From positions 664,033 to 728,032 of the forward strand of contig NZ_BLXY01000001.1 of the NCBI RefSeq assembly GCF_014193585.1: a stretch of DNA of 64,000 nt, given 5' to 3'. The notes under the pieces were generated by a model. It saw only the letters and a list, made by a program, of their open reading frames with translations. It made no database searches and had not been told where the DNA came from. The DNA comes from Geomonas paludis (GTDB taxonomy: Bacteria; Desulfobacterota; Desulfuromonadia; Geobacterales; Geobacteraceae). The stretch's first letter is position 1. Each line of letters opens with the position of its first letter. A program made the translations under genes and the position numbers. Of this stretch, positions 46,522-62,434 are shown piece by piece.

Positions 46522-47469
46522 TCAGACCACCATGTTGCGTGGGTGGCCGAGGACGAATCCTTCCACGTTCCCGATCACCTGCTCGGCCAGGGTGGCGAGA
46601 GATCGGTCGCTGATCCAGGCGACGTGCGGCGTGACGATCAGGTTGGGCTGTTTCAGGTCCAAAAGGGGCGAGCCGTCCCGCGGCGGTTCCTGGGTCAGCA
46701 CGTCGAGCCCCGCACCGGCGATGACGCCTTCCTCCAATGCCTTGGCCAGTGCCGCTTCGTCCAGGAGCCCGCCCCGGCCGCAATTGACCAGGATGGCGTG
46801 GCGCGGCATCAGCTTCAACTCCGCCTCGCCGATCATGCCGCGGCTTTCCTCGGTGAGAGGGCACAGCAGCACCAGCACGTCGCTCTGGGCCAGAACCTCC
46901 TCGAACGGCGTCCGGTCCGGGCGCACCTCCGCCGCTCCCTTTCTCTCCGCGTAAAGCACCTCCATGCCGAAGGCCTCACCAAGCGCTGCCACGGCGCTCC
47001 CCAGGGCGCCTACCCCGATGATGCCGAGCTTGGCCCCGGAAAGCGAGCGCGGCATCGGCTCCACCTGCACCAGGTACCCTTCCGAACGCTGCCACGCGCC
47101 CCCCTGCACCACGTCATGGTAGGCGAGCAGGTTGCGCCGCAGGGCCAGGATCAGGGAGAAGGCGTGCTCCGGTACGCTCACCGACCAGTTACGCACGTTG
47201 GTTACCGCGATCCCCTGGTGGCGGCAGACGTCAACATCGACGTGGTCCACCCCGGTGGCGGCGACCGCGATCAGGCGCAGATTCGGCAGTTCCGCGAGGT
47301 GCTCGGCGGTGATGGCGACCTGGTCGGTGATCGCGATGGTGGCGTCGGCAAGACGTTCCACCACCTGTTCCGGTCTGGTATCCGGGTATTCCTGCCAGTG
47401 GTGCGGGAAACATGGGGGGCGCAGCGGCACCGAGATGCCGCCGCGATCAAGAAAGACGATCCTCTCCAT
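46522..47469 (-). CDS. D-2-hydroxyacid dehydrogenase (NAD-dependent)
   Basis: The 315-residue protein has the D-hydroxyacid dehydrogenase fold: VAATGVDHVDVDVCRHQGI, the NAD loop GAKLGIIGVGALGSAVAALG, catalytic Arg in ILVNCGRGGLLDEAAL, Glu in AGLDVLTQEPP and His in VTPHVAWIS. It interconverts 2-keto acids and D-2-hydroxy acids; hydroxypyruvate and glyoxylate reductases are near relatives. The start ATG shares a base with the stop of the universal stress gene (TGATG), so translation is coupled. The frame is open upstream, but that part is the other gene read out of phase. It ends the aor-gdh operon. Confidence 0.9.
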   Translation of the reverse strand: MERIVFLDRGGISVPLRPPCFPHHWQEYPDTRPEQVVERLADATIAITDQVAITAEHLAELPNLRLIAVAATGVDHVDVDVCRHQGIAVTNVRNWSVSVPEHAFSLILALRRNLLAYHDVVQGGAWQRSEGYLVQVEPMPRSLSGAKLGIIGVGALGSAVAALGEAFGMEVLYAERKGAAEVRPDRTPFEEVLAQSDVLVLLCPLTEESRGMIGEAELKLMPRHAILVNCGRGGLLDEAALAKALEEGVIAGAGLDVLTQEPPRDGSPLLDLKQPNLIVTPHVAWISDRSLATLAEQVIGNVEGFVLGHPRNMVV

Positions 47470-48266
47470 CAGTGCGACATGAGGACCGGTATGGTCATGT
47501 GGCGCAGCACGTGTTTGGCGACGTCGCCCAGCACGTAGTTGCCGAAGTGCAGGTCGGCGTAGGCGCCCATCACCAGGAGATCGCTCCCCTCGTCGGAGAC
47601 GCGGTTCAGAAGCACGTCGCCCACGTGCAGTTCGGTGATCAGGCTGGTCTCGACTTCGGCCTTGACGCCGTGCGCGGCGAGATAGCGGCGCAGGCCCTCC
47701 AGGTCCGCCTCTTCTCCCTGGCTCGGGTTCACTTCGAAGATGTGGGTTGACGCCGCGGCCTTCAAAAACGGGACGGCATCGGTCAGTGCGCGGGAGGATT
47801 CGCGCCCGGTTTTCCAGGCGACCAGGACCTTGTCGCCGGCGCTGCTGTACTTGCCGGTGTAGGGGACGATCAGGACCGGCTTGCCGGAACCGAAGACCAC
47901 TTTCTCGGGGAGGAAATCGGTGGCGCGGCGCTCGGAGGAACCGTGCTCGCTCTGGCCCACGACCACGAGGTCGGCGAAGGTGGCGTAGTGGTTGATGGCC
48001 TCGACCACACCGCCCAGCACCTTGGCGTCGGCGGCGACCCACTCGCCCTTCACGTCGGCGGCAGCGGTCTTTTCCTTGAACAGGCGCGCCAGTTCCTCGG
48101 TAGCGTCCTGGTCGTGGCCCCGGCGCAGCGGGATCAGGTGGTGCGGCTGCACCTTGAGCCCGATGACCCCGGCGCGGTGCCGCTTGGCGAGGTTGAGGGC
48201 GAGGTCGAGCCGGTCGGCGGAGTGGTCGGGGTCATCCATGAAGACAAGAATCTGTTTCAGCTCCAT
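47469..48266 (-). CDS. Tandem-domain universal stress protein
   Basis: The 265-residue protein carries two UspA-like domains. The first is KQILVFMDDPDHSADRLDLAL ... ADLVVVGQSEHGS. The second is DKVLVAWKTGRESSRAL ... DLLVMGAYADLHFGNYVLGD. The usual GxxG-S ATP-binding motif is changed in both halves. Such proteins modulate stress or bind partner enzymes. Its ATG overlaps the stop of glutamate dehydrogenase and its stop overlaps the dehydrogenase start, so it is locked between two amino-acid enzymes and might regulate one of them. Confidence 0.87.
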   Translation of the reverse strand: MELKQILVFMDDPDHSADRLDLALNLAKRHRAGVIGLKVQPHHLIPLRRGHDQDATEELARLFKEKTAAADVKGEWVAADAKVLGGVVEAINHYATFADLVVVGQSEHGSSERRATDFLPEKVVFGSGKPVLIVPYTGKYSSAGDKVLVAWKTGRESSRALTDAVPFLKAAASTHIFEVNPSQGEEADLEGLRRYLAAHGVKAEVETSLITELHVGDVLLNRVSDEGSDLLVMGAYADLHFGNYVLGDVAKHVLRHMTIPVLMSH

Positions 48267-61009: not shown

Positions 61010-61123
61010 GTAGGGGGATGACCGGGCGGACTGAACGAGGTCCGTCCCTTCGATCCGACACCTTTACCGGGATCCTCACAGGAACCCGGTAGTCACCAAC
61101 TACTAGGCAAAGGAGCTTCACCC

Positions 61124-62434
61124 ATGACCGCTGGTAACGAGCAACTGATGGAATTGCGCAACAAACACGTCCCCGGAGGGGTAGCACTTTTGAGCCCCGC
61201 CTTCATCGCCAAGGCCCAGGGGGCCATCATGACCGACGTCGACGGACGTGACCTGATCGATTTCGCCGGCGGCATCGGCGTCAACAACGTCGGCCACAGC
61301 CACCCGAAGGTCGTCAAGGCCATCCAGGAGCAGGCCGAGAAGTTCATTCACACCTGCTTCCACGTCGCTCCCTACCAGGGGTACATCGAACTGGCGCAGC
61401 GCCTGAACGAGCTGGCACCGGGCAGTTCCCCGAAGCAGACCATGCTGGCCAACTCCGGCGCCGAGGCGGTCGAGAACGCCATCAAGATCGCCCGCTACGT
61501 CACCAAGCGCCCGGGCGTCATCTCCCTTGAGAACGGCTTCCACGGCCGCACCCTGATGACCATGACCCTCACCTCCAAGGTGAAGCCCTACAAGTACGGT
61601 TTCGGTCCCTTCGCTCCGGAGAGCTACCGCATCCCGTCCGCATACTGCTACCGTTGCCCCTACGGCGGGAGCTACCCGAGCTGCGGCTGCGCCTGCGCCC
61701 ACAAGCTCGACGAGTTCTTCACCGGCTATGTTGCCGCCGAGCAGACTGCGGCCATCATCATCGAGCCGATCCAGGGCGAGGGCGGCTTCGTCACCCCGCC
61801 CAAGGAGTACTTCGAGATCGTGCAGGGGATCTGCAAGAAGCACGGCATCCTCCTCATCATCGACGAGATCCAGAGCGGCATGGGGCGCACCGGCAAGCTG
61901 TTCGCCATCGACCACTGGGGCATCGAGCCGGACCTCATCACCACCGCCAAGAGCCTTGCCGGCGGCATGCCGCTCTCCGCGATCACCGGTCGCGCCGAGA
62001 TCATGAGCCAGCCGCACCCGGGCGGACTGGGCGGCACCTACGGCGGCAACCCGCTCTCCTGCGCGGCTGCCCTCGCCGTCCTCGACATCTTCCTCAACGA
62101 CGGTCTGCTGGACCAGTCCGTGAAGCTCGGCGAGAAGCTGCAGCAGCGCTTCGACGAGATGCAGCAGAAGTACGAGATCATCGGCGAAGTGCGCGGCAAG
62201 GGCCCCATGCTCGCCTTGGAGCTCGTGCGCGACCGCAACACCAAGGCGCCCGCCGGCGATCAGGCCAAGAAGCTGGTCAAGCTCTGCTACGACAAGGGGC
62301 TGGTCATCCTCTCCTGCGGCGCCCTCGGCAACGTGGTCCGTCTGCTGATGCCGCTGGTCATCACCGACGAGCAGCTCGAGCGCGGCATGGCCATCCTCGA
62401 GGAGTCCCTCGCCGAGGTGAACGCCGAGATCTAA
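61124..62434 (+). CDS. gabT: Class III aminotransferase, probable 4-aminobutyrate aminotransferase
   Basis: The 436-residue protein has the class III PLP landmarks: MLANSGAEAVENAIKIAR (phosphate binding), GFHGRTLMTM, IIIEPIQGEGGFV, LLIIDEIQSGMGRTGKLFA (the Asp that binds the pyridine nitrogen) and TTAKSLAGGMPLS with the Schiff-base Lys at 276. It fits GabT, which transfers the amino group of 4-aminobutyrate to 2-oxoglutarate, giving succinate semialdehyde and glutamate; other omega-amino acids are possible. A Cys-rich insert CYRCPYGGSYPSCGCAC lies at 175-191. AAAGGAGCTTCACC precedes the start. No semialdehyde dehydrogenase gene is adjacent, but aor lies nearby. Confidence 0.87.
   Translation: MTAGNEQLMELRNKHVPGGVALLSPAFIAKAQGAIMTDVDGRDLIDFAGGIGVNNVGHSHPKVVKAIQEQAEKFIHTCFHVAPYQGYIELAQRLNELAPGSSPKQTMLANSGAEAVENAIKIARYVTKRPGVISLENGFHGRTLMTMTLTSKVKPYKYGFGPFAPESYRIPSAYCYRCPYGGSYPSCGCACAHKLDEFFTGYVAAEQTAAIIIEPIQGEGGFVTPPKEYFEIVQGICKKHGILLIIDEIQSGMGRTGKLFAIDHWGIEPDLITTAKSLAGGMPLSAITGRAEIMSQPHPGGLGGTYGGNPLSCAAALAVLDIFLNDGLLDQSVKLGEKLQQRFDEMQQKYEIIGEVRGKGPMLALELVRDRNTKAPAGDQAKKLVKLCYDKGLVILSCGALGNVVRLLMPLVITDEQLERGMAILEESLAEVNAEI

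Follow-up and report, generated by a model that had tools for sequence, protein, structure and literature searches.

Introduction

The gab pathway of the E. coli type pairs the aminotransferase GabT with the NADP-dependent succinate semialdehyde dehydrogenase (SSADH) GabD. The present work concerns a related locus of Geomonas paludis, contained in a stretch of 64,000 nt (C1:664033-728032, hereafter the window) of a genome assembly of 5.1 Mb that is 99.99% complete. Its GabT scores above the cut-off of the TIGR00700 model, and GabD occupies a slot of the corresponding cluster in four relatives. In the window, however, a gene pair coding for a MoaD-like protein and a tungsten-type aldehyde:ferredoxin oxidoreductase (AOR) stands in GabD's place in the operon, and electrons would go to ferredoxin rather than to NADP.

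The P. furiosus formaldehyde ferredoxin oxidoreductase (FOR; 1B25/1B4N) belongs to the same enzyme family as the window AOR and shares its fold. We know of no transaminase operon for FOR. The two proteins are 23% identical in the fold alignment, and in a phmmer search the window AOR scored higher against the AOR-type structures 9mqx (133.4 bits) and 1aor (131.7 bits) than against 1b25 (112 bits); it is thus not closer to FOR than to other tungsten oxidoreductases (WORs). In a 2026 classification, a physiological role is defined for a member of only five of the 92 WOR clades (PMC13328260). The window AOR resembles the Class I WORs of that work (WorL only) in being a large subunit with no adjacent electron-transfer subunit in its operon, but the roles tabulated there for the class, aldehyde detoxification and glycolysis, differ from the semialdehyde step proposed below; the words 'semialdehyde', 'aminotransferase' and 'aminobutyrate' do not occur in its main text. 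A distinct MoaD strictly beside AOR, distributed sporadically and suggested to form a mobile cluster, was described by Iyer, Burroughs and Aravind in 2006 (PMC1779556, whose main text does not contain the word 'aminotransferase'), and the moaD-aor pair of the window has the same arrangement and a sporadic distribution. In Pelobacter carbinolicus, of the same bacterial group, aorA1-4 have been read as serving ferredoxin-linked oxidation in catabolism of a different substrate, acetaldehyde, and three of its aor genes were predicted to be under molybdenum-cofactor riboswitches (PMC3543383). No earlier report of an AOR acting as SSADH in GABA (4-aminobutyrate) catabolism, or of a physiological role for one in a gabT operon, was found in open-access PMC, a search that may have missed 'aldehyde:ferredoxin' spellings.

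A GabT-AOR-glutamate dehydrogenase gene cluster in Geomonas

The original prediction placed GabT, an amino-acid ABC importer, AOR with its MoaD, a glutamate dehydrogenase (GDH) and a sigma-54 activator together, and all of them are indeed present within positions 46522-62434. The gabT gene (61124-62434, plus strand) codes for a class-III omega-amino acid:2-oxoglutarate aminotransferase that matched TIGR00700 with 565.9 bits (equivalog cut-off 506.65) and PF00202 with 446.7 bits; another GabT model, PRK06918, remained below its cut-off (583.6 versus 676). All other genes of the block lie on the minus strand, divergent from gabT. The first codes for a PAS-containing sigma-54 activator (58846-60657; PF00158, 227.8 bits; putative GTG start at 60657), for which the nearest NCBIfam model, PrdR (NF041552), gave 403 bits, below the cut-off of 795. 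It is followed by genes for a LivK-type periplasmic binding protein (57238-58479; PF13458, 180.4 bits), the permeases LivH (56173-57060) and LivM (55170-56171), both matching PF02653, and the ATPases LivG (54441-55166; PF00005 and PF12399) and LivF (53734-54444; NF008626). For livF, an ATG start preceded by GGGGAGG was chosen; the listed open reading frame (ORF), 53734-55128, begins too far upstream, the NF008626 match starting at its residue 231. Next come moaD (53392-53616), coding for a MoaD/ThiS-like sulfur carrier of 74 aa with a C-terminal GGG (PF02597, 38.8 bits, cut-off 22.5) and overlapping, in a different frame, an over-long version of the AOR ORF; aor (51336-53177), coding for a large subunit of 613 aa with both AOR family domains (PF02730, 124.9 bits, cut-off 29.8; PF01314, 155.8 bits, cut-off 27); and gdh (48266-51334), coding for a large GDH of 1022 aa (PF00208, 101 bits; PF05088, 87.3 bits; both above cut-off), one of four such genes in the host genome. 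The operon closes with two genes that the original prediction omitted, coding for a universal stress protein with two PF00582 stretches (Usp; 47469-48266) and a D-2-hydroxyacid dehydrogenase (46522-47469; PF02826, 181.3 bits, scored on a longer ORF). From aor to the operon end the genes abut or overlap: gdh begins one base past the aor stop codon, and the start codon of the D-2-hydroxyacid dehydrogenase gene overlaps the stop codon of usp.

The full 12-gene order is kept in six of the eight named Geomonas loci (L011-L016), as well as in L043 and L047, which indicates that the block is more than a chance grouping. The remaining two named loci (L031, L033) are paralogous AORs of G. azotofigens. 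The closest named locus is that of G. anaerohicana, with an AOR identity of 98%. The operon GDH of L047 (12438-15502, genome G028) reads in two overlapping frames, pointing to a frameshift or a sequencing error.

We propose, with a probability of about 70%, that the block is a module for the inducible anaerobic breakdown of an omega-amino acid, GABA being the likeliest in Geomonas, and that in it AOR displaced the NAD(P)-dependent SSADH that occupies the same slot in relatives. The omega-amino acid would be imported by LivKHMGF, and GabT would transfer its amino group to 2-oxoglutarate, yielding a semialdehyde, most likely succinate semialdehyde. AOR, with its pterin cofactor served by the dedicated MoaD, would oxidize the semialdehyde to the dicarboxylate in GabD's place, reducing ferredoxin, while GDH would restore 2-oxoglutarate with release of ammonium. 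The activator encoded between gabT and livK would drive both through sigma-54 promoters.

Exchange of GabD and MoaD-AOR between livF and gdh

A survey of 277 genomes of the class gave 34 GabT matches with at least 68% identity in 27 genomes (window gene included) and 14 weaker ones (51-57%). Gene order was read by tblastn for all 16 non-Geomonas matches and for 13 of the 18 Geomonas ones, the other five being taken from coordinates only. The backbone gabT / activator-livKHMGF-X-gdh was found again outside Geomonas. In four relatives slot X, between livF and gdh, holds a gabD whose product passes the SSADH model. One of them, G033 (L042), belongs to the same family but another genus; G194 (L054 and L102), G189 (L055 and L103) and G195 (L053 and L099) belong to another family of the order. 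The G195 locus is split between two contigs, both broken inside livK, one with gabT and the other with livKHMGF-gabD-gdh. Slot X holds moaD-aor in Geomonas and in three other genomes: G256 (L051), G224 (L049, where the contig ends within aor) and, in a modified arrangement, G232 (L052). GabD and AOR never occurred together in this slot in the loci read for gene order. The AOR gene thus occupies the slot of the usual SSADH in what appears to be a conserved GABA cluster, which suggests that one enzyme replaced the other; an NAD(P)-linked step would here have been swapped for a ferredoxin-linked one inside a single conserved operon.

Other arrangements were also seen. In G232, two other genes separate moaD-aor from livF, and gdh flanks gabT on its far side. 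Past livF, G247 retains usp and moaD but no aor. Loci of either kind may have usp after gdh (L051; the GabD-type L102 and L103), although G033 does not (L042, L105), and the idea that Usp belongs with AOR only was consequently rejected. GabT, AOR and GDH share one contig in 12 of the 13 Geomonas genomes having both gabT and aor, these two being ∼9-11 kb apart. The exception, G025, has GabT and AOR on different contigs. GabT, MoaD and AOR are also grouped in L056, L057, L072, L023 and L028 (side by side in the last two, with a GabT of 50-51% identity), and together with GDH in L065, L066 and L069. Among the 14 weaker GabT matches, several of which lie on short contigs, four have the AOR subfamily in the available stretch (L065, L066, L069, L072) and two more have a PatA-linked AOR clade (L068, L070).

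Besides the GabD of their Liv operon, G195 and G189 have a third kind of AOR (L053:6636-8333, L055:7147-8856), 44% identical to an AOR on contig C7 of the host, directly downstream of gabT after the small protein described next. A conserved protein of ∼90-95 aa is encoded beside gabT in nine loci (L050-L058; for example, L057:11014-11301); it had no match in Pfam (E 0.01) or NCBIfam (E 1e-10) and was not found in the Geomonas stretches examined.

Co-occurrence of GabT, AOR and SSADH across genomes

Presence was scored at E 1e-100 within Geomonas and at E 1e-150 for AOR across the class. The named loci probably overlap with the G-numbered genomes, and the two sets were not summed. Among 19 Geomonas genomes, GabT was present in all 13 with AOR and in none of the six without it. 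GabD did not track GabT, being found in 12 of those 13 genomes and in all six of the others (18/19 overall). Across the class, the AOR subfamily was present in 23 of the 27 GabT-clade genomes and in 76 of the 250 others, while the figures for GabD were 18/27 and 83/250. An SSADH above the TIGR01780 cut-off was present in 18 of the 27 GabT-clade genomes. The nine in which none was found are G019, G217, G224, G234, G246, G247, G116, G117 and G125; all but G217 have the AOR subfamily.

Putative sigma-54 promoters and intergenic sequences

The regions upstream of livK and gabT were scanned for sigma-54-like sites in 12 loci (the window and 11 others), with the 95th percentile of single-base shuffles as background. 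Upstream of livK, a -24/-12 site of the form TGGCAT-N6-TGCT (58638-58653, minus strand) scored 12.5, the shuffled percentile being 12.0. A site of this type was the best of its region in all 12 loci and exceeded the percentile in 11 (the exception is L015). The gabT gene is preceded by a weak site whose -12 element reads GT (60994-61009, plus strand; score 12.0, percentile 12.5); a TGGYAYG-N4-TTG site is present 77-167 nt upstream of gabT in 12/12 loci, as the second best in L054.

In contrast to what is predicted for P. carbinolicus, no Rfam family reached its gathering score between window positions 46000 and 63000, nor in seven other loci scanned, and control by a riboswitch was therefore rejected.

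The host gene for the PutA/P5C dehydrogenase (L037:6252-9266) has as a neighbour a gene (L037:9669-11129) whose product looks, by eye, like a member of the family of the window's activator, suggesting that such activators may govern several amino acid routes. Four copies of a palindromic GGGGACTGGCTCCG...CCTGTCCCC repeat were found between livF, moaD and aor (53208-53244, 53267-53303, 53354-53384 and 53653-53683); the gaps that hold them in the window differ in length among Geomonas loci.

GabD elsewhere in the genome and AOR in other contexts

The observation that no NAD(P)-dependent semialdehyde dehydrogenase is visible holds for the window, where no PF00171 protein is encoded; unlike a gab operon, the cluster includes no SSADH. 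It does not extend to the genome, in which a PF00171 search gave four matches: ProA, a PutA-type P5C dehydrogenase, an aldehyde dehydrogenase (ALDH) under every cut-off shown, and a true GabD (C7:74784-76235; PRK11241, 837.5 bits, cut-off 828; TIGR01780, 744.4 bits, cut-off 646.35). The possibility that GabD is absent was thus discarded. Being on another contig, this GabD is not part of the GabT/AOR cluster.

Several observations weigh against the proposed module. The intact, bona fide GabD means that AOR is not the sole candidate enzyme in the host. G217 has GabT but neither the AOR subfamily nor an SSADH above the cut-off, and eight of the 14 weaker GabT matches (L064, L067, L071, L073-L077) have neither kind of AOR. 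The AOR subfamily, found in the 76 genomes without the GabT clade mentioned above, is not tied to GabT; it adjoins an ALDH resembling alpha-ketoglutaric semialdehyde dehydrogenase (KGSADH) in seven loci (L083-L087, L091 and L082, which shares a contig with L018). In L022 and L094 its neighbours are Liv genes and an alcohol dehydrogenase, as judged by eye; in L089 and L090 it lies next to GabD itself; and in other AOR loci none of these, nor GabT, is nearby. Such varied neighbours would also suit an aldehyde enzyme of broad specificity drawn into many modules. In G019, which lacks GabD, a KGSADH-like ALDH, 61-65% identical to three of those adjoining AOR elsewhere, faces the end of the operon in convergent orientation. 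The scheme leaves Usp and the D-2-hydroxyacid dehydrogenase without a role. The gabT gene, being divergent, is not on the transcript of aor, and in no locus of the 12 did the site upstream of it score above the 95th percentile of shuffled sequence, which places it at background level. Because the genomes share descent and the genes move together as a cluster, the counts are not independent, and Fisher values were not relied on. Finally, sequence does not fix the aldehyde. The AOR subfamily occurs in many other contexts, and the notion that it is confined to GabT loci was rejected. The ∼525 aa ALDH after AOR in the seven loci (L082:1729-3333, L083:9394-10971, L091:10278-11861 and kin) is itself, in L083, only distantly like KGSADH (117 bits, cut-off 770).

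In view of the unlinked GabD, GabT might be partnered by that enzyme, with AOR acting as a broad aldehyde scavenger or on an aldehyde that is formed in some other way from a different imported amino acid. This would agree with the intact GabD of the host, with the presence of GabD in 12 of the 13 Geomonas genomes having GabT, with the many contexts of the AOR subfamily, and with the reading of the Pelobacter carbinolicus AORs as acetaldehyde:ferredoxin oxidoreductases (PMC3543383). We nonetheless consider it unlikely. GabD occurs equally in the six Geomonas genomes that lack GabT and is thus not kept for GabT; the same slot is filled by either AOR or GabD; and G019 and G224 have GabT and AOR while their sole TIGR01780 match at 1e-60, a threshold that leaves room for weaker ALDHs, is a PutA-type P5C dehydrogenase. 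Somewhat less improbable, though still doubtful, is that AOR and GabD are used in parallel, with AOR serving under tungstate supply and a demand for ferredoxin reduction, and GabD under other conditions; this overlaps with the module proposed here, as AOR would still oxidize the semialdehyde. Both enzymes are present in 15 of the 27 GabT genomes, and GabD adjoins MoaD-AOR in L089 and L090. Yet eight GabT genomes have AOR without a close GabD, three have GabD without AOR, and among all 277 genomes, 21 of which have both, there is a tendency to mutual exclusion (odds ratio 0.33, not corrected for descent).

The closed route of the original prediction, with AOR taking the SSADH step and GDH recycling glutamate, gains support from the slot exchange, the co-occurrence with GabT, the GabT genomes without an over-cut-off SSADH, and the second cluster described below; the unlinked GabD and the substrate, which is not fixed, qualify it.

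The substrate of the module

The C5 compound 5-aminovalerate, the product of proline reductase, could replace GABA as the substrate. GabT would then act as DavT and AOR on glutarate semialdehyde, the glutarate going to glutaryl-CoA; the difference from the proposed module is in the substrate only. The activator's nearest model is PrdR, of proline reductase. In addition, genes for CaiB CoA-transferase-like proteins lie within ∼5 kb of gabT in L050, L052, L056, L057 and L058 (families f4 and f12), which suggests 5-aminovalerate or glutarate in those relatives; the best model for the L057 protein was succinate--glutarate CoA-transferase, at 569 bits, below the cut-off of 750. At E 1e-60, however, the 13 Geomonas genomes that have the locus, and likewise G033 and G224, gave no homologue of the L057 protein (Geomonas G027, which lacks the GabT/AOR locus, has one), which favours a C4 product and makes GABA the most likely substrate there. 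Moreover, in the four relatives the GabD of slot X scores above the SSADH model's cut-off, and the sister cluster on contig C3 of the host includes a putrescine aminotransferase, with a C4 substrate. We therefore regard 5-aminovalerate as an improbable substrate in Geomonas.

Semialdehyde chemistry itself appears plausible and has a precedent: P. furiosus FOR has been discussed as a glutaric semialdehyde enzyme, glutarate having been bound in the crystal and glutaric semi- or dialdehyde suggested as the native substrate (PMC12096430, in the part available). The available text of PMC6773877 and PMC10746287 names no growth of Geomonas on GABA. The proposed route predicts that growth on GABA or putrescine would be tungsten-dependent, and, for one WOR subfamily, it would define a class of substrates that can be tested in soil bacteria already in culture.

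Features and phylogeny of AOR

The assignment of the window AOR to the WOR family is borne out by its domains and predicted structure. Residues C315, C318, C322, C509, E345, Y453 and H469 are invariant in 25/25 aligned members. We take the four Cys residues to be those of the 4Fe-4S cluster. E345, Y453 and H469 align with the second-shell residues Glu313, Tyr427 and His448 of 1aor (numbering by hand), while Tyr312 and Glu311 of 1aor are replaced by Phe and Asp; roles for the second-shell Glu, Tyr and His in the WOR family are given in the available part of PMC12096430. The AlphaFold model of AOR (mean pLDDT 80.1, pTM 0.87) matched 9mqx, 1aor and 1b25. In a fold search with it, nine PDB chains were obtained at E < 0.001, all of them AOR, FOR, WOR5 or BamB, with TM-scores by query of 0.67-0.77. 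A loop on the active-site side (446-456) is poorly modelled (pLDDT < 50), and the alignment to 1b25 breaks off in the active-site region relevant to substrate. The operon has no electron-transfer subunit, and ferredoxin is the putative acceptor.

In a tree of 55 AOR rows, the deepest split drawn divides the 13 rows of slot type, which required four label changes, at least three of them forced by well-supported branches. (Rows L095 and L096 were labelled 'LivADH' from Liv matches alone; no claim uses that label.) In the GabT tree (28 rows) the AOR label needs three changes, at least two of them forced. Three changes could represent one gain and two losses; from these trees, membership of AOR in the slot appears to have arisen or changed in more than one event, which is not to say three gains. 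The operon copies in the GabD tree were unresolved, with two very long branches, and that tree was not used.

A second AOR/GabT/GDH cluster in the host genome

A second cluster, at C3:1-23000 of the host genome (L034, L035), joins two AORs, PatA, a second GabT (GabT2) and GDH. Its first part codes for an AOR of another clade, a ferredoxin-like subunit, the putrescine aminotransferase PatA (PRK11522, 649.5 bits, cut-off 612), MoaD and GabT2 (TIGR00700, 578 bits). The rest codes for an activator paralogous to that of the window, a further copy of PatA, an APC permease and GDH, then for the other AOR, which belongs to the window's subfamily (67% identical to the window AOR), and for another class-III aminotransferase. 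We read this cluster as one for putrescine catabolism with AORs beside both transaminases. A relative of it, L062, includes a putrescine-type ABC importer (181.8 bits to PotD, cut-off 582), as do L060 and L061 by eye, and in L058 an agmatinase (TIGR01230, 175.6 bits, cut-off 174.3) is encoded beside GDH-MoaD-AOR. G217, to which L062 belongs, has this type of cluster without an AOR of the window subfamily.

A wider conjecture, for and against which we see the odds as even, is that in Geobacterales and kin both aldehyde steps in the catabolism of putrescine and GABA have passed to tungsten AORs. The AOR with a ferredoxin-like subunit beside PatA would replace aminobutyraldehyde dehydrogenase, and the stand-alone MoaD-AOR beside GabT would replace SSADH, ferredoxin being reduced instead of NAD(P); the second of these swaps would have occurred more than once.

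The two patA copies of the C3 cluster (L034:5074-6435 and L034:13008-14360), which lie within 8 kb of each other, are 100% identical over 99% of the query.

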